Source: Bacteroidota bacterium
Lineage (GTDB): Bacteria; Bacteroidota; Bacteroidia; B-17B0; Aurantibacillaceae
NCBI GenBank assembly: GCA_021323535.1
Contig: JAJONO010000002.1
Span: 62,001-126,000 of the forward strand
Direction of reading: 5' to 3'
Length of the DNA: 64,000 nucleotides
Shown: positions 26,165 through 45,380 of the stretch, piece by piece
How the letters are laid out: every line of letters starts with the position of its first letter
How positions within the stretch are numbered: position 1 is the first letter of the stretch
Position numbers and translations under genes: made by a program
Notes under the pieces: generated by a model
What the model was told of the DNA's origin: nothing
The model's database searches: none
The model's input: the letters and a program-made list of their open reading frames with translations, nothing else

Positions 26165-26620
26165 ATGACAACCTTAGTTAAATCAAACGGACACGGAAGA
26201 CATTTCTTCCCTGAGTTTCCAAGCTTATTTGATGATTTCTTCACAAGAGACATGATCAACTTTGCTAAGCCCACAAACAACCACCTTCCAGCGGTAAACG
26301 TAAAAGAAACCGATAAAGCTTACAGCATTGAAGTGGCTGTTCCGGGCATGGACAAAAAAGATTTTAAAATTGAATTAAAAAACAATCTTCTTGTGATATC
26401 TGCAAAAAAAGAAAACAAGCAGGAAGAAAAAAGTGAAGACGGAAAATATGTTCGTAAAGAATTTGGTTTCCAATCGTTCACCAGGTCGTTCACCTTACCT
26501 GAGAAAAGTGTAGAAGGTGAAAACATATCGGCTAATTACACGGATGGTATTTTAAACATTACCATTCCTAAGAAAGAAAAAGAGCAAACCAGCTCGGTGA
26601 GAGAGATTCAGATTAGCTAG
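26165..26620 (+). CDS. Hsp20/alpha-crystallin small heat-shock protein
   Basis: 151 residues: a Phe-rich N-terminal arm (FFPEFPSLFDDFFTRDM), the alpha-crystallin domain (about 45-140; LPAVNVKETDKAYSIEVAVPGMDKKDFKIEL, ANYTDGILNITIPKKE) and a C-terminal IQI, the I-x-I motif that docks into neighbouring subunits. An ATP-independent holdase that forms large oligomers. Single gene with its own hairpin-rich upstream region and a strong terminator. ATG start. Confidence 0.95.
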   Translation: MTTLVKSNGHGRHFFPEFPSLFDDFFTRDMINFAKPTNNHLPAVNVKETDKAYSIEVAVPGMDKKDFKIELKNNLLVISAKKENKQEEKSEDGKYVRKEFGFQSFTRSFTLPEKSVEGENISANYTDGILNITIPKKEKEQTSSVREIQIS

Positions 26621-26627
26621 AACAAAA

Positions 26628-26660
26628 AAGCCCCGTGGTAATGTCACGGGGCTTTTGTTT
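26628..26660 (+). terminator. Terminator of hsp20
   Basis: Stem AAGCCCCGTG / CACGGGGCTT with a seven-base loop and a T-rich tail, starting eight bases after the stop. In reverse it also faces the end of the module downstream of the SpoIIE gene and could act in both directions. Confidence 0.92.
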
Positions 26661-26662
26661 TT

Positions 26663-26823
26663 CTAAACTCTTACAGCAACAATAAGCACATCCATTCGTC
26701 TGCGCTCCATCGGTCGCCAACCGCGTGTCGCTGAAGCTTTAGCGGAGGCACAAGGCTTGCCAACGGCGTAGCGGGGCAAGCTACTCTGTTTGCAATCAAA
26801 TTCTTATTCCTATAATGCAAACA
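26663..26823 (-). repeat. SpoIIE 3'-end module, locus A
   Basis: Read on the minus strand, it has an 8 bp inverted repeat TGTTTGCA / TGCAAACA (arms 26816-26823 inside the last codons and 26787-26794 just after the stop), the core AGAGTAG, a palindromic insert (GCTTGCC...GGCAAGC; CGCTAAAGCTTCAGCG), then a second degenerate copy of the gene end at 26692-26663 reading D-V-L-I-V-A-V-R-V-stop. Loci B and C have the same plan without the extra insert of about 65 bp. Confidence 0.65.
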
Positions 26824-28844
26824 TCGTCTACCTGCTCCAGGTTTCCGCGCCATTCTTCAAATTTTTTATCCAGAATTTCTTTTTGCTCTGCAGGATCTTT
26901 TTCGAAGATGTCCATTAATAAAGTTTCAAGTTGTTTATACTTAAATTTCTTTCCTTTTGGTCCTCCAAACTGGTCGGCGTAACCATCAGAAAAAACATAT
27001 AACATATCGCCTTTATTCAAATCAATGACATGATTAGTAAACGGAAGCGATTTTCCCATAAAGTAACCAATGGGACGTTTATCAGCGACATAATGGTTCA
27101 TACCAACCTCGCCGTTCTTTTTAGTGCAGATCCATAACGGATTATTTGCTCCTGCATATTCCACCTGAGAATTATCCTCGTTGAAACAAACCAGCGCCAT
27201 ATCCATCCCATCTCTTGATGCGCCAACTTCTCCGGTTTGTTTCAGTGATGACTTTACCCTGTTACGTAATTCGCCAAGTATTTCGGAAGGTTTTAAAACG
27301 CCTTGTCCGTTCACGATTTCGTTCAGGAACGCGCTTCCCAACATACTCATTAAAGCGCCAGGCACGCCATGCCCTGTACAATCCACTGCAGCAACAATTT
27401 TCTGTCCATTCTTCCTGGCGTACCAATAAAAGTCGCCGCTAATAACATCTTTGGGCTTAAAGAGAATAAATGAATCAGGAAACAGCGGGGTTTCATTTTC
27501 CATTGGAGGAAGAATTACTTCCTGGATACGTTTCGCGTAATTAATAGAGTCAGTAATATCTTTGTTTTTCTCTTCAATGATCTTTTTCTGATGAGAAATT
27601 TCTACGAGAGATTGTTTCTTTTGTTTATATCCTTTAAAAATGAAAAATAACAGCGCCGTCATTAATACAAGTCCAAAGAAGCTGACATAGATCACAAACG
27701 ATTTTTCGCGCGACTCGAGAGAACTCTTTTCAATTTCCAGATCTTTTACTTTCAGCTCGCGATCCTTCTTATCGGTCTCGTACTTTGTTTGCATATCCGC
27801 GATTTGTTTCGCGTTACTTTCTGAATGAAGAGAATCCCGCGCAACCTGGTATTTTCCAAGGTAAAAAGACGCGCTATCGGGTTTACCAAGATAGGCTGAT
27901 GTTACAATAAGATCAGCCGAAGAGGCTTTAATAAATTCAAGGCTGTTTATTTCACGTGCAAGATTGTATGATTTCAAAAAATACTGATGAGAGATCTTCC
28001 AGTCTTTAAGATGCAGGTGACTTAAGCCGAGATAATAATTGAGTTGCGACAATGATCTTGGATCGTTAAACGATAAATAGATCGGAAGTATTCTGTTATA
28101 ATAGGAAATGGCCTTCTCATGATCTTTATTCTCCGAATAGTTTTGCGCTAGGCTTATGTATGCATCCGCTATCAGAACAGAATCACCTGCAATCCTGGCA
28201 TTCTCAATGCACCTGTTCATGTAACTGAGAAATTCTGTCTGCGTGCTTTTACGATCGAGACATGAGGCAATATTAAGACAGCACGACGCGATTCCGTAAT
28301 TATCCTTGCTTTGTTCCCTGATCTTTAATGAGCGTTTAAAATAGGACAGGGCCTTTTCGTTTTCCTGTCGTTGAAAATAAACAGCACCCAGATTATTGCA
28401 GGCACGGGCAATAGCAACGCTATCACCTAGCGCTTCTGCCACATTCAGAGTTTTTATATAATTGCGGATCGCTTCCGGAAACTTTCCCTGGTAATCGTAA
28501 CAGATTCCAATGTTAGAATACGCGTCACACAATCCTTTATTGGATTCTGACGCTTCAAAAAACTTAATGGCTTCATTAAAATAAGTAATAGCCGTATCAT
28601 ACTTTCCCTCGTATAAATAACAAAGAGCGATGTAATTCTTTCCTAATCCCCTTCCCTTTGTATATTTTTTTTCACTGGATTCCTTATAAATTTTATCCGC
28701 TAAATATTTCGCCGAATCCAGGTTTGTTTTTAAATGATTACGAAAACGCTCAGCCAGTTTTGCAAAATAGATGCTGTCGTTCTGAGAGAACAATTTTCCA
28801 CCCAGGAATAACATTAGAAAAATATATTTGTGATAACAACGCAA
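26796..28844 (-). CDS. Membrane-anchored TPR-SpoIIE/PP2C phosphatase A
   Basis: About 680 residues. Signal/anchor peptide, about seven TPR repeats in the presumed periplasm (NIGICYDYQGKFPEAIRNYIKTL, NNLGAVYFQRQENEKALSYFKRSL and others), a membrane span (VIYVSFFGLVLMTALLFFIF, near residue 400), a coiled coil with DITDSINYAKRIQ, and the cytosolic SpoIIE phosphatase domain (GDFYWY, VDCTGHGVPGALMSMLG, VFSDGYADQFGG, DDVCIIGIRI). Expected to sense an external signal through the TPRs and dephosphorylate a regulatory protein. I chose the TTG at 28844 (MRCYHKYIFLMLFLGGK); TTG at 28889 is possible. Last gene of an apparent NarX-NarL-SpoIIE-SpoIIE operon. Confidence 0.88.
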   Translation of the reverse strand: MRCYHKYIFLMLFLGGKLFSQNDSIYFAKLAERFRNHLKTNLDSAKYLADKIYKESSEKKYTKGRGLGKNYIALCYLYEGKYDTAITYFNEAIKFFEASESNKGLCDAYSNIGICYDYQGKFPEAIRNYIKTLNVAEALGDSVAIARACNNLGAVYFQRQENEKALSYFKRSLKIREQSKDNYGIASCCLNIASCLDRKSTQTEFLSYMNRCIENARIAGDSVLIADAYISLAQNYSENKDHEKAISYYNRILPIYLSFNDPRSLSQLNYYLGLSHLHLKDWKISHQYFLKSYNLAREINSLEFIKASSADLIVTSAYLGKPDSASFYLGKYQVARDSLHSESNAKQIADMQTKYETDKKDRELKVKDLEIEKSSLESREKSFVIYVSFFGLVLMTALLFFIFKGYKQKKQSLVEISHQKKIIEEKNKDITDSINYAKRIQEVILPPMENETPLFPDSFILFKPKDVISGDFYWYARKNGQKIVAAVDCTGHGVPGALMSMLGSAFLNEIVNGQGVLKPSEILGELRNRVKSSLKQTGEVGASRDGMDMALVCFNEDNSQVEYAGANNPLWICTKKNGEVGMNHYVADKRPIGYFMGKSLPFTNHVIDLNKGDMLYVFSDGYADQFGGPKGKKFKYKQLETLLMDIFEKDPAEQKEILDKKFEEWRGNLEQVDDVCIIGIRI

Positions 28845-28864
28845 GATTCTCTGAGCTTTAAAGT

Positions 28865-28932
28865 TGTTTAATAGTTTAAGACAGTTCAAATAGTCTTTTG
28901 AACAATTTTAAACTTCTTTAAACAATTTTGAG
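28865..28932. repeat. TTTAAAC-rich intergenic tract
   Basis: Clustered GTTTAA, GTTCAA and TTTTAAAC units on both strands between phosphatase genes A and B. A similar tract lies at 60391-60475 upstream of the vWA gene. It is simple AT-rich sequence and its role is unknown. Confidence 0.45.
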
Positions 28933-28934
28933 AT

Positions 28935-29030
28935 CTAAACGCGAATTCCAATTATACAAACATCCCTTCGACAGTCCTCAGGGCAGGCTACTCCGTATGC
29001 TATTATATTCTTATTCCAATTACGCATACG
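28935..29030 (-). repeat. SpoIIE 3'-end module, locus B
   Basis: Minus strand: inverted repeat CGTATGC / GCATACG (arms 29024-29030 in the last codons, 28994-29000 after the stop), core GGAGTAG, a spacer with CCTGCCCTGAGGACTG, then a 30-base second copy of the gene end at 28964-28935 reading D-V-C-I-I-G-I-R-V-stop. That copy matches the coding version closely (GTTTGTATAATTGGAATTC against GTATGCGTAATTGGAATAA). Confidence 0.75.
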
Positions 29031-31168
29031 TCGTCAACCTGTTCCAGTTTTCCTTTCCAGCTTTCGAAAGTTGATTCCAATTGTATTTTCTGATCTTTCA
29101 ATTGATGTTCAATCATCAACAAAAGAATTTCTTTCATCTGCGAATATTTGAACTTCTTTCCTTTTGGTCCGCCAAACTGGTCGGCGAAACCGTCGCTGAA
29201 AATATATAAGACGTCTCCTTTATGAAGATCGATCTCATGATTGGTAAAAGGAAGAGATTTTCCCATGAAATAACCTATCGGTCGTTTATCTGCAGTATAT
29301 TGAATTACTTCCCAGCTTCCCGAACGTTTGGTAAACAACCAGAGCGGGTTATTTGCTCCGGCAAATTCAACTTTTGTATTCCCTTCGTAAAAAGAAAGAA
29401 GCGCCATATCCATTCCATCCTTCGACTCCCCTACTTCACCGGTTTGTTTTAAAGATGTTTTTACTTTGTTTCTCAACTCGCTTAAAATTTCCGAAGGCCG
29501 AACAATTCCTTTTTCATTTACAACTTCATTAAGGAAGGCGGTTCCGATCATACTCATTAAAGCACCCGGGACACCATGCCCTGTACAATCCGCCGCTGTA
29601 ATTATTTTACGATCATTCTTTTTGTTATACCAGTAAAAATCGCCGCTGATAACATCCTTCGGTTTATAAATGACAAAAGTTTCCGACAAAAAATCAGGGC
29701 TTATTTCAGGTGAGGGTAAAATCACTCCCTGTATTCTCTGTGCGTAATTAATGGAATCGGTAATATCTTTATTCTTCTCTTCAATGATTTTATTTTTCTC
29801 AGAAAGTTCAACCAGGGATTGTTTCTTTTGTTTGTATCCCCTGAAAATAAAAAAGGCCATTCCTATTACCAGAATAAATCCTCCTATGAACGCGTTACGT
29901 TGTGTTTCCTTTTGTTTTGTTTTAAGGGCCTCTTCCTTAATCTGTGAATTCTGTTCAAGTATTCTTCTATCCTTTAACTCGGTGTCGTACTTTGTTTGCA
30001 TTTCGGTCATTTGCTCCGAACGTTCCACATTGAGTACCGAATCTTTTATAGCTTCATATTTTTTTCTGTACAAAAGCGCGTTTTTAAGATCGCCTTCTCC
30101 TTCAAAATCTTTCGCAATGGCGTCGTAAAGCGTAACGCGTTCTTCCCTTAAACCATTTTTCAAAATAATGTCAAGGGCTTTAAAATGATTCTCCTTGGCG
30201 AGTTTTATATCTTTGAGTGCAAAATAATCGGCTCCGAGATTAATATATGAAGAGGCAATTCCTAACTCATCGCCAAGTGATTCTTTAATAGCCAGTGATT
30301 TTTGGTTAGCGCGAATGGCGGATTGATAATCTCCAAGGTCGTAATACACGCCACCAAGATTATTGTAACACAAACCCTGCCCCTGGGGATTTTCTATTTC
30401 GGTAAACTTACGTAACGCGTCTTCGTAATATCGTTTAGCGATAAGGTCCTTCTCGTCGAAATCGTAAATAATCCCAATGTTAAGAATTGTATTGGCCAGG
30501 CTTTTTACGTCAAGTGGATTTTTCATATTCGCTTTACGTTTCTTCATATCAAGCGCCTTATTAAAGTAGATGAGCGCTTTATCATAATCCTGAATTCCTT
30601 TATATACAAGCCCAAGGTTATTATACGCAGAAGCTGTCATGAGCGTATCTCTTATCTCTTCGGCAATGCGGGCCGACTCGAGACAGTATTTCATTGCGTT
30701 CTGAAAATCGCCGCGAATGATATAACCCTGTCCGATGTTTCCGTTGGAAGCAGCGATTCCTTTTTTCCATTTTATTTCTTTACGGAGTTCCAGCGCCTTT
30801 AAATGGAAATAGATGACCGAGTCTGGCATACCCAGAACATTATATACATTTCCAAAAGCGAATAAGACATTGCTCTCTCCTTTTTTATCTTTTATCTTTT
30901 CGGAGAGTTTAAGGGCCTGATCACCTATACGAAGAGCCTTATCCGGATCAAATGCCGTATAATTCACACAGAGGTGATAGTACGTAATAACCTTGTTGGT
31001 GTCTTCTTTTGAGTTTTTAAGTACAAGTTCCAGCGAATCAATAATGCGTTTTTTACCAACCGGAATTTTCGCTTGTGATTTTATGGTTAAAGAAAAAAGG
31101 AAAAATACACAGAAAACAATTATCTGCACATTAAAAACCTTTTTTGTATAATTATTTGATAGCCGCAA
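29003..31168 (-). CDS. Membrane-anchored TPR-SpoIIE/PP2C phosphatase B
   Basis: 721 residues. N-terminal signal/anchor (NVQIIVFCVFFLFSLTIKSQ), about eight TPRs (AYNNLGLVYKGIQDYDKALIYFNKAL, NLGGVYYDLGDYQSAIRANQKSL), a coiled coil (MTEMQTKYDTELKDRRILEQ), a membrane span (NAFIGGFILVIGMAFFIFRG, near residue 435), the DITDSINYAQRIQ linker and a SpoIIE domain with all acidic metal motifs (GDFYWY, ADCTGHGVPGALMS, FSDGFADQFGG, DDVCVIGIRI). Close paralogue of phosphatase A. The start is TTG at 31168, needed for the signal sequence. It begins 34 bp after the NarL-type regulator gene, so it is likely in the same transcript. Confidence 0.9.
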   Translation of the reverse strand: MRLSNNYTKKVFNVQIIVFCVFFLFSLTIKSQAKIPVGKKRIIDSLELVLKNSKEDTNKVITYYHLCVNYTAFDPDKALRIGDQALKLSEKIKDKKGESNVLFAFGNVYNVLGMPDSVIYFHLKALELRKEIKWKKGIAASNGNIGQGYIIRGDFQNAMKYCLESARIAEEIRDTLMTASAYNNLGLVYKGIQDYDKALIYFNKALDMKKRKANMKNPLDVKSLANTILNIGIIYDFDEKDLIAKRYYEDALRKFTEIENPQGQGLCYNNLGGVYYDLGDYQSAIRANQKSLAIKESLGDELGIASSYINLGADYFALKDIKLAKENHFKALDIILKNGLREERVTLYDAIAKDFEGEGDLKNALLYRKKYEAIKDSVLNVERSEQMTEMQTKYDTELKDRRILEQNSQIKEEALKTKQKETQRNAFIGGFILVIGMAFFIFRGYKQKKQSLVELSEKNKIIEEKNKDITDSINYAQRIQGVILPSPEISPDFLSETFVIYKPKDVISGDFYWYNKKNDRKIITAADCTGHGVPGALMSMIGTAFLNEVVNEKGIVRPSEILSELRNKVKTSLKQTGEVGESKDGMDMALLSFYEGNTKVEFAGANNPLWLFTKRSGSWEVIQYTADKRPIGYFMGKSLPFTNHEIDLHKGDVLYIFSDGFADQFGGPKGKKFKYSQMKEILLLMIEHQLKDQKIQLESTFESWKGKLEQVDDVCVIGIRI

Positions 31169-43244: not shown

Positions 43245-43338
43245 CTATAGCTTTATTCCAATAATGCAAACATTCCCTCACCTTCGTTCAGCACAGACTA
43301 CTCCGTTTGTTCAGATTCTAATTCCGATTATACAAACG
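43245..43338 (-). repeat. SpoIIE 3'-end module, locus C
   Basis: Minus strand: inverted repeat CGTTTGT / ACAAACG (arms 43332-43338 in the last codons, 43304-43310 after the stop), core GGAGTAG, a short spacer, then a 30-base second copy of the gene end at 43274-43245 reading N-V-C-I-I-G-I-K-L-stop. Confidence 0.75.
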
Positions 43339-45380
43339 TCGTCAACCTGCTCCAGCGTTCCTTTCCAGTTTTCAAAATTCTCTTCAAGTCTTTTATTTTG
43401 TTCTTCGAAAGATAAACCTGCATTATCCGCCAATAACTGATTAAGTGGTTTGTATTTGAATTTCTTTCCTTTAGGGCCTCCAAACTGGTCGGCAAATCCG
43501 TCGGTATAAAGATACAGACTGTCACCCGGAGAAGCTTCTATCGTTCTTAACGTAAATGAATCCGTCTTCTCTCCTTTTCCAACCGGCATTTTATCTTTTC
43601 CAAGTTCGATGCTGTTTCCTTTAGAAACAACTATCGGATGATTATTTGCGGCAGCATAAGTTATTTTCCGGGCTTCGTTCCCATTTGAATCTTTCGTTGT
43701 TTCTATGCAAAGTAATATGGCATCCATTCCGTCCTTTCCTCCGTCTTTTGAGATCTCATCGATCAGGCGCTGGCGGACATGATCCAGTATCTCATTTGGC
43801 TGATAGATCTTTTTTTCATTGATAGCTTCATTAAGAAATGAAATATTAAGAAGGCTCATAAATGCCCCGGGAACACCATGACCGGTGGAATCGCAGACTG
43901 CGAGGTAGAATCGTTGAATATTTAACGTTGAATGTTGAACGACAGTACTCCAGTAAAAGTCGCCACTCACAATATCTTTTGGTTTAAAGAAAACGAAATG
44001 TTCCGGAAGATGTTCTTTCAGAAATTCATCGTGTGCCAGTAAAGTATGCTGAATGCGTTTTGCATAATTGATAGAATCAATGATCTCTTTCTGCTTTTCT
44101 TCAATGATGTGATTTTTTTCTTCTACCAGATGTTTTTGTTCTTCAATAATTGTCTTTTGTTTTCGTGTTACCTGTAAGCGATTAAATACAAACACCGCGA
44201 AAACAAGAATCAATACCAATCCAAGCCCAATACCAATACTAATAACACGTTGCTTCTGCTCACGCTCACCCGCAAGTACAAGTTCCTTTTCATGTACCAC
44301 CTTATCAATCGCTGTTTGTTTTTCGTATTCAAATTTCACCTGCTCTTTTATAGCGGCACCCGCGTTCTCAATATTGTTGATGCTATCGCGCATAGAGTAA
44401 AACAACTTATGGTATTCAAGTGCATCTTTCCAGTTTCCTAAAGCAGATTCAATTTTATACAGCGAGCTTGCCTGCGATTGAATATGTGCAGGATAACCAA
44501 TTTCCTTTGCTATCGTTAGGGCCTTTAAGGCATACTTTTTTGCTTCATTGTATTTTTTTTCTTTGAGAAGAAGATCGCTTATATTTCCCCAAACAACGCA
44601 CAAGCCTCTCTGATTCTTTATTCTTTCCTGTATTTCAAGACTTTTGCGAAAATACTCCATCGCTTTTTTCAGGTCACCTTCACCTTCATACAACGTACCA
44701 ATATTATTCAATGTTAAAGCTACGCGAACAGGATCATCTGATATTTTATACATTTCAAGAGCTTTGAAATAGAAATATTTAGCCCTTTCATTTTGCATCA
44801 TTTCATCATAGGTACTACCAAGGTTCCCGTATATCTGCCCTATTCCTTTTTTGTCTCCCATTTCAATCCTGATGGTAAGACTTTTCATAAAAAATTCGAT
44901 CGCATTATTGTAGAGCTTTTGCTGAATATATATTCCTCCCAGATTATTATAAACCAGGGCGAGATTTGTTTTATTATTGATCTTTTTCTCAATTTCCAGC
45001 GACTTGTGGTAAAACTCAATCGCCTTTGGAAGATCTTCTTTATTATGCAGTTCGTAGCCTTTGTTATTATAGGCATTGGAGAGACGAACCATATAGAAAG
45101 TGTCGAGACTGGTAACAGGAACTTTTATACTTTTCAACTTTGCCTCGCATATCTTAATGATCTCATTGTTGTATAGCGGCCACTCAGTTTCATCAAGAAT
45201 TACATCAACCAGAGCAGTAAGCGCGGTACATCTGGCTGTATCACTTGGCGATGATTTAACGATCGCTTTTAATGAATCAACGTTTTGGGCTGGAAGAAAA
45301 CATGAAAAGAAAAGTAACAAAGATGTGATCATCTTTGCGGATGGCTTAATGACAAATTGCGTATGGGGATAATAACGCAT
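43311..45380 (-). CDS. Membrane-anchored TPR-SpoIIE/PP2C phosphatase C
   Basis: 689 residues. Signal sequence (MITSLLLFFSCFLPAQ, from residue 17), TPRs from about 90 to 340 (YNNLGGIYIQQKLYNNAIEFFMKSL, NNIGTLYEGEGDLKKAMEYFRKSL), a membrane span (VISIGIGLGLVLILVFAVFVF, near 380), a long coiled coil (QKTIIEEQKHLVEEKNHIIEEKQKEI) and the SpoIIE domain (GDFYWS, VCDSTGHGVPGAFMSLL, LYTDGFADQFGGPKGKKF, DDVCIIGIRI). Same architecture as phosphatases A and B but more diverged, with a 12-residue insert after GDFYWS. Stands alone between mnmE and the rRNA/tRNA methyltransferase gene. ATG start. Confidence 0.9.
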   Translation of the reverse strand: MRYYPHTQFVIKPSAKMITSLLLFFSCFLPAQNVDSLKAIVKSSPSDTARCTALTALVDVILDETEWPLYNNEIIKICEAKLKSIKVPVTSLDTFYMVRLSNAYNNKGYELHNKEDLPKAIEFYHKSLEIEKKINNKTNLALVYNNLGGIYIQQKLYNNAIEFFMKSLTIRIEMGDKKGIGQIYGNLGSTYDEMMQNERAKYFYFKALEMYKISDDPVRVALTLNNIGTLYEGEGDLKKAMEYFRKSLEIQERIKNQRGLCVVWGNISDLLLKEKKYNEAKKYALKALTIAKEIGYPAHIQSQASSLYKIESALGNWKDALEYHKLFYSMRDSINNIENAGAAIKEQVKFEYEKQTAIDKVVHEKELVLAGEREQKQRVISIGIGLGLVLILVFAVFVFNRLQVTRKQKTIIEEQKHLVEEKNHIIEEKQKEIIDSINYAKRIQHTLLAHDEFLKEHLPEHFVFFKPKDIVSGDFYWSTVVQHSTLNIQRFYLAVCDSTGHGVPGAFMSLLNISFLNEAINEKKIYQPNEILDHVRQRLIDEISKDGGKDGMDAILLCIETTKDSNGNEARKITYAAANNHPIVVSKGNSIELGKDKMPVGKGEKTDSFTLRTIEASPGDSLYLYTDGFADQFGGPKGKKFKYKPLNQLLADNAGLSFEEQNKRLEENFENWKGTLEQVDDVCIIGIRI

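Follow-up and report, generated by a model that had tools for sequence, protein, structure and literature searches.

A candidate hairpin-bearing cassette that may resupply the C-terminus of TPR-SpoIIE phosphatase genes in Bacteroidia

The window analysed here, a stretch of 64,000 nucleotides from a Bacteroidota bacterium, carries on its minus strand the genes A, B and C, each of which encodes a phosphatase with TPR and SpoIIE domains. Gene A (26796..28889) is an open reading frame of 697 amino acids with matches to the Pfam families TPR_12 (1.1e-36) and SpoIIE (PF07228; 8.5e-20). By sequence reading, its proximal, used tail (T1, DDVCIIGIRI*) occupies 26796..26828 and ends with the stop codon TGA at 26798-26796. 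The last codons contain the 5' arm X (TGTTTGCA; 26816..26823) of a hairpin, H1, and just past the stop lies its 3' arm X-rc (TGCAAACA; 26787..26794), 21 nt away and complementary to X in 8/8 positions; both the stop and this pairing had been recorded in the initial annotation and agree with our reading of the sequence. The arm had been placed directly after the stop; it is there, but one extra T separates the stop from TGCAAACA. X-rc is followed by the tag GAGTAG (26781..26786; family consensus GGAGnAG or GAGTCAG), by nested palindromes and by an untranslated second gene end. Tag and REP-like hairpin region (H2), including a nested dispersed palindrome, together span 26693..26786, and the distal relic tail (T2, DVLIVAVRV*, GATGTGCTTATTGTTGCTGTAAGAGTTTAG) spans 26663..26692, all on the minus strand. 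This second gene end, at 26692-26663, had been described as in-frame. A gene end does lie there, but it starts 103 nt past the stop and in frame +1 relative to gene A, so that plain in-frame readthrough cannot reach T2.

Genes B (29003..31168) and C (43311..45380), assigned by the same Pfam domains, share this layout on the same strand. In gene B, arm X (CGTATGC) lies at 29024..29030, X-rc (GCATACG) at 28994..29000, followed by GAGTAG and H2, and the distal tail DVCIIGIRV* at 28935..28964; in gene C, X (CGTTTGT) lies at 43332..43338, X-rc (ACAAACG), again followed by GAGTAG and H2, at 43304..43310, and the distal tail NVCIIGIKL* at 43245..43274. From the stop of T1 to T2, the three genes have a spacing of 36-103 nt, and the insert contains no endonuclease ORF. 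When the distal end of gene A is compared with the gene's own last ten codons, it scores 30, and the distal ends of B and C score 47 and 39; when the 160 nt downstream of the respective gene are shuffled 2000 times with dinucleotides preserved, none of these values is reached. Chance debris is thus rejected as the origin of the three second ends, as the initial annotation had argued from the shared layout, and its suggested comparison of the distal 30 bases of A with shuffled sequence has the same outcome. The predicted RNA fold of the whole A stretch has z = -3.47; an unrelated terminator hairpin (26661-26621) lies in the same stretch. No known RNA family from Rfam matches the window between 25000 and 32000 at its gathering score. 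The strong terminator-like hairpin at 26621-26661 separates the second tail of A from a convergent ORF (26165-26620). Downstream of the distal tail of B, at 28934-28850, there is a long AT-rich palindrome of GTTTAAA-like words, and similar ones follow the distal tails of L038, L086 and L095; other SpoIIE genes end in GGAAAATGTAAG-like palindromes.

The palindromes of the A insert are of two kinds. A segment of 66 bp (26707..26772, minus strand) recurs at 94% identity in an intergenic place of the same genome (G000:C63:41370), and its 32-bp core (CCTCCGCTAAAGCTTCAGCG..CACGCGG; 26721-26752) sits inside other palindromes at G000:C140 and C1, with a decayed form at C10. A comparison of the A unit with the L027 unit shows that the core was added in A. 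The extra palindrome of A is a second, unrelated repeat, separate from the tail element; in gene A, it would have entered the H2 hairpin later. The scan of the genome proposed in the initial annotation has found copies of its 'extra palindromic insert', which is a real, dispersed repeat; that annotation had not distinguished it from the tail element, but the two are distinct. As a separate observation, the CCTCCGCTAAAGCTTCAGCG.. palindrome sits in the loops of other palindromes (L099 at G000:C140, L100 at C1, and 26721-26752 of the window), as if hairpin tips were an insertion target.

The 5.3 Mb genome from which the window derives (G000) possesses about 90 TPR-SpoIIE genes, many of them in tandem runs, e.g. 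at G000:C25:31973-43262. An alignment of TPR-SpoIIE 3' ends had been suggested as a check; of 93 such ends from this genome, one of which (L034) is cut by a contig end, 11 have the same layout, including L038 with two units in tandem, and two more show remnants (L029, L089). Furthermore, at G000:C1:20056 (L164), a VL-type cassette and a second tail belong to the decayed end of a SpoIIE-like gene, in front of which no gene is recognisable. Across the window and eleven other stretches of the genome, DNA mostly chosen for its SpoIIE genes, a second tail within 160 nt follows 9 out of 24 SpoIIE-like ORFs and none of 143 other ORFs. The unit of tag and H2 shows the same restriction: GAGTCAGTTTAYCCTGAG, with at most one mismatch, has 34 sites in 6 of 10 genomes, and in a comparison by eye each of them falls within a place at a SpoIIE end. 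An ordinary REP- or terminator-like hairpin behind some genes, with a second gene end arising by chance, has next to no probability in our view and is refuted as a full account. The H2 core CCTGAGC..TCGAAGG is indeed a generally dispersed palindrome with 26 exact sites in G000, and the tag contains GTAG in this genome; the shuffles for A, B and C, the lack of the layout in all 143 non-SpoIIE ORFs and the empty sites in orthologs described below nevertheless speak against it. One general REP was likewise rejected, because the unit of tag and H2 is confined to SpoIIE ends even though the H2 core is dispersed. A free GGAGTAG element was also considered and rejected: 8 inspected sites among 39 other GGAGTAGCCTG-like ones turned out to be unrelated sequence without the unit.

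With a covariance model built from twelve copies of the own genome, 22 of the 40 genus genomes give hits at E<=0.01, and in 11 of these the best E is below 1e-9. The order throughout the genus is T1 with its stop, X-rc, tag, H2 and T2. The tag reads GGAGTAG in the own genome, GAGTCAG in most relatives and GGAGGAG in G001 and G049, and H2 consists of CCTGAGC..TCGAAGG or another palindrome. Tandem arrays with a period of about 70 bp occur at several sites (G006:C12, G007:C8). Of 70 parsed loci, 57 entered the tests of arms and tails; the other 13 have no recognisable second tail, or are the pseudogene end at G000:C1:20056 or the remnants L029 and L089. Within the 57 loci, X-rc tracks the codons of its own gene: its exact match with its own T1 has a mean length of 7.30 nt, as against 5.91 nt with T2 and 5.39 nt when arms are swapped among loci, and the maximum in 1000 arm-swap shuffles is 5.86. 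Within single genomes, the number of shuffles out of 2000 that equal or exceed the observed value is 3 for G021, 3 for G045, 12 for G006, 1 for G049 and 4 for G000; for G019 it is 205, which is not significant. In 31 aligned units, 97.3% of the arm cells of X-rc and T1 pair, and 10 cells have changed on both sides, a result reached by none of 500 shuffles, although related sequences can inflate this pair count. X-rc is also able to pair with T2, in 95.7% of the cells of these units.

Which of the two tails is native can be read from orthologs with and without the insert. One group comprises G021:C178, G006:C10 and the empty G019:C12, whose sole tail, together with its flank, matches what the filled genes carry as distal tail and flank: G019:C12, 97% identical in amino acids to the filled G021:C178, ends with ..GGCGTTCGTTTGTAA+ATACCCTCATA, which the distal copy and flank of G021:C178 match (..GGCTTTCGTTTATAA+ATACCCTCATA) and its proximal copy (..GGTGTAAGACTATAA) does not. 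A second group comprises G019:C2:466111, G021:C198 and G007:C21; its empty member, G007:C21, ends with ..AAGATCTAA, as does the distal copy of G019:C2:466111, whereas the proximal copy of the latter (..AAAATATAA) differs. Because the empty genes end like the distal copies, the insert supplied the used tail in both groups: judged from these alignments, T2 and its flank are the native end and T1 is the newcomer. The initial annotation had supposed that the gene's 3' end had received a palindromic element and that a working C-terminus was either retained or restored. It had also proposed a search for insert-free alleles in which the distal copy is the real end; the two cases in relatives support the supposition. 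In a search of 40 relatives with gene A at E<=1e-130, two genes with an identity of about 40% were retrieved and otherwise no close ortholog that lacks the insert. No empty site was found for A, B or C, which counts against the cassette reading. With no close ortholog for A, B and C, the insertion reading applies to them by analogy. The T2 of gene A is nearer to the tail of the insert-free paralog L033 (24/30) than to its own T1 (18/30).

On these grounds, we presume, with a probability of about 0.62, that a mobile or copied hairpin cassette of ~65-100 bp resupplies the C-terminus of TPR-SpoIIE phosphatase genes in some uncultured Bacteroidota, its way of moving being the part we infer. According to this model, insertion would take place within the conserved 3' end of a TPR-SpoIIE gene, immediately 5' of roughly its last nine codons; the 5' part of the cassette would re-encode these codons and the stop (T1), followed by an inverted copy of the tail start (X-rc), the tag (GGAGnAG or GAGTCAG) and the REP-like hairpin H2, so that the native tail (T2) would be displaced downstream and no longer form the gene end. 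The cassette might move as hairpin-bearing single-stranded DNA in the manner of IS200/IS605 or REP elements, with X-rc, 5' of H2, acting as a guide through its pairing with X, both at the edges of the element itself and in the target. Such a guide would explain why only SpoIIE genes are targets, why there is a direct repeat from X on and why the arm is complementary to host codons; being harmless to the gene, the cassette would persist. Local recombination between T1 and T2 would then build tandem arrays and even out the copies. The observational ground of the model is the anatomy, the restriction to SpoIIE ends, the native T2 and newcomer T1 of the two ortholog groups, the unit-wise spread among paralogs in one genome and the tandem growth.

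The spread among paralogs was seen in G408, a genome of another family, where five paralogs carry a nearly identical cassette with a sharp left edge. The proportion of identical synonymous codons is 0.55 upstream (n=88) and reaches 1.00 throughout T1, in its DD part (n=20) as well as its 5' part (n=40) and 3' part (n=44); complete identity from GATGAT on is as expected of a unit that was, by this comparison, copied in one piece. In the own genome, no such jump in identity is present (0.48 upstream as against 0.52 and 0.48 for the halves of T1), and its units therefore look old. It is possible, though rather unlikely in our estimate, that gene conversion between paralogous ends has done all this without any mobile element, the homology of SpoIIE 3' ends allowing a hairpin-bearing tail to be copied onto paralogs. 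That only SpoIIE ends are affected, that some 90 SpoIIE paralogs are available in the genome as donors and that some ortholog pairs show concerted evolution of T1 and T2 would all suit such a process. Conversion tracts, however, should end at scattered places, while in G408 the GATGAT edge marks a drop in synonymous-codon identity from 1.00 to 0.55 despite continuing homology upstream; nor does conversion alone explain arms that complement each gene's own codons.

A point against the cassette reading is the likeness of the two tails within a locus. T2 agrees with its own T1 at 19.65 of 24 positions on average and with the T1s of other loci at 16.59; this likeness is significant in G021, G045, G006 and G000 and not in G019 and G049. 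In relatives, 16 out of 56 comparisons of T1 with a tail copy are identical in codons 2-9. To judge from these comparisons, likeness and identical copies fit local duplication or conversion, and we count them against the cassette reading. At L050 and at the pseudogene end G000:C1:20056, each of the two copies is a VL-type tail, which is a further point against this reading, as a DVC tail then does not come with every cassette. The doubled tail could instead stem from duplication in place, by template switching or slippage of replication at hairpins, with quasi-palindrome correction both making the arms and keeping them complementary; template switching reportedly gives rise to perfect stems and preserves them (excerpts of PMC8794818), and the tandem arrays of ~70 bp as well as a T2 that tracks its own T1 would follow. 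We regard this explanation as a little less probable still than conversion, since the proximal tail is foreign to the native end in two ortholog groups and since tag and H2 are common to many SpoIIE loci and absent elsewhere.

Beyond the genus, a second covariance model matches 13 of 395 genomes of the class at E<=1e-5, which belong to eleven genera and several families. The thirteen places outside the genus that were inspected are SpoIIE-type tails; a few of them start inside repeats, where the gene itself lies outside the inspected sequence. G371 (family f34) has a repeat that begins further in, with a corresponding shift of the arm (ATAGGTGT/ACACCTAT, G371:C44). Two observations count against a cassette: in G109 and G225, tails are repeated but tag and arm are missing, and the units of G408 show no clear X-rc arm. 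More tentatively, and with the odds against it, the cassette may represent a class of bacterial selfish DNA that has no protein of its own and owes its persistence to the final host-gene codons it brings along, with a guide arm that pairs with the coding sequence of one gene family, a C-terminus that is swapped harmlessly, growth in tandem and a spread through paralogs of several Bacteroidia families.

The displaced tail retains traces of coding constraint. Differences between T1 and T2 fall mostly on the third codon position (122/185 in relatives, 52/86 in the own genome); the finder of second tails, scoring likeness of amino acids, is biased towards such synonymous differences. In eight ortholog pairs, T2 shows 16 synonymous differences to 7 others, where about 25% synonymous would be expected without constraint (binomial 1.1e-5); for T1, the same pairs give 13 to 1. 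The T2 ratio is suggestive of selection, yet sequence comparison of this kind would give the same ratio if T2 was formerly the real tail. We consider it improbable that the distal tail is still in use, either because the hairpins drive an alternative C-terminus by ribosome hopping, RNA removal or DNA excision, or because X-rc toggles its pairing between T1 and T2 as a regulator of the 3' end. The T2 ratio and the ability of X-rc to pair with T2 would agree with this. T1 is far more constrained, though, T2 has decayed or lost its stop in several loci (G007:C20, G021:C152, G021:C109), and a past role as real tail together with conversion by T1 can produce the pattern. Moreover, nearly the same protein would result from either tail, with no evident benefit, and it is for this reason that we keep translational bypass or splicing only as a low rival.

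The proposed cassette shares features with several known systems. In fungal mitochondria, mORFs bring a foreign C-terminus to atp6 of Allomyces and to atp6, atp9, cox2 and nad3 of Glomus sp. (excerpts of PMC3630166). As described there, they supply a new in-phase C-terminus and displace the native one downstream, where it remains nearer to that of close relatives, and our two ortholog groups have just this arrangement. According to the same excerpts, mORFs contain an endonuclease ORF and measure about 1 kb; the cassette has ~65-100 bp, no ORF and two hairpins, is bacterial, occurs in many paralogs and forms tandems. REP sequences are short hairpins with a tag at the 5' foot, often located just after genes, and their ends sometimes supply a stop codon (excerpts of PMC3733652 and PMC6006769). 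The cassette resembles REP elements and their RAYT (TnpA-REP) partners, as these excerpts portray them, in the hairpin with its 5'-foot tag after genes. Its tag contains GTAG in the own genome but reads GAGTCAG or GGAGGAG, and not GT[AG]G, in most relatives. It differs from them in that it occupies the ends of one gene family only, instead of many dispersed intergenic places, and in a 6-10 nt arm complementary to the host gene. IS200/IS605 and REP elements possess a tetranucleotide guide 5' of the hairpin that pairs with the cleavage site (excerpts of PMC6006769). For IS200/IS605, this source places the cleavage or target site at the element edge, in an order comparable to X-rc, H2 and X, and X-rc indeed pairs with the X of both T1 and T2 in the 31 aligned units, less clearly so in those of G408; the guide of the known elements is a tetranucleotide, while the cassette arm has 6-10 nt and no linked transposase.

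Counting against the cassette reading, a transposase tied to the cassette was not found, and G006 lacks any Y1_Tnp match at E<=1e-6 even though some of the best units occur in it. Tag and H2 were seen near none of 15 inspected Y1_Tnp loci; a linked RAYT gene, flanked by the same repeat as in REP systems, was thus not found either. Y1_Tnp is present in 10 of 11 unit-bearing genomes and in 15 of 29 other genomes of the genus (Fisher p 0.03), a weak association for which genome size is a confounder. The own genome has three Y1 transposase genes, two of which (G000:C31:11237, C55:37324) contain an in-frame stop. For a reading of the insert as integron attC-like, the integron core consensus was not seen by eye. 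Rickettsia palindromic elements add residues in frame; the cassette, unlike these, would replace the last codons and displace the old ones. Rickettsia elements and other intragenic REPs have in common with the cassette that palindromes are tolerated within coding genes (excerpts of PMC3733652). In the mitochondria of Nematomorpha, inverted repeats overlap coding sequence as well, in this case with long perfect arms inside the genes of a eukaryotic organelle and, in the excerpts of PMC6649704, with no displaced second gene end described. Among open-licence PMC papers, we found none that describes a tail-replacing hairpin unit, which may be in print elsewhere.

If the cassette reading holds, the unit would be a tail-replacing insert of very small size whose guide arm tracks the sequence, and it would show how hairpin DNA that does not code can live within coding genes without evident cost. 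The mechanism of insertion is directly testable in ortholog pairs that differ in the presence of the cassette. The loci also offer a natural system for studying how REP-like hairpins might move where no linked transposase is seen, and how the arms of coding hairpins stay complementary as codons change. As a side observation, in five loci of G049 (L191-L193, L197 and L198), the tail and the post-stop arm form hairpins of up to ~15 bp that take in nearly the whole tail including the stop, and, read by eye, these hairpins have a different sequence in each gene.
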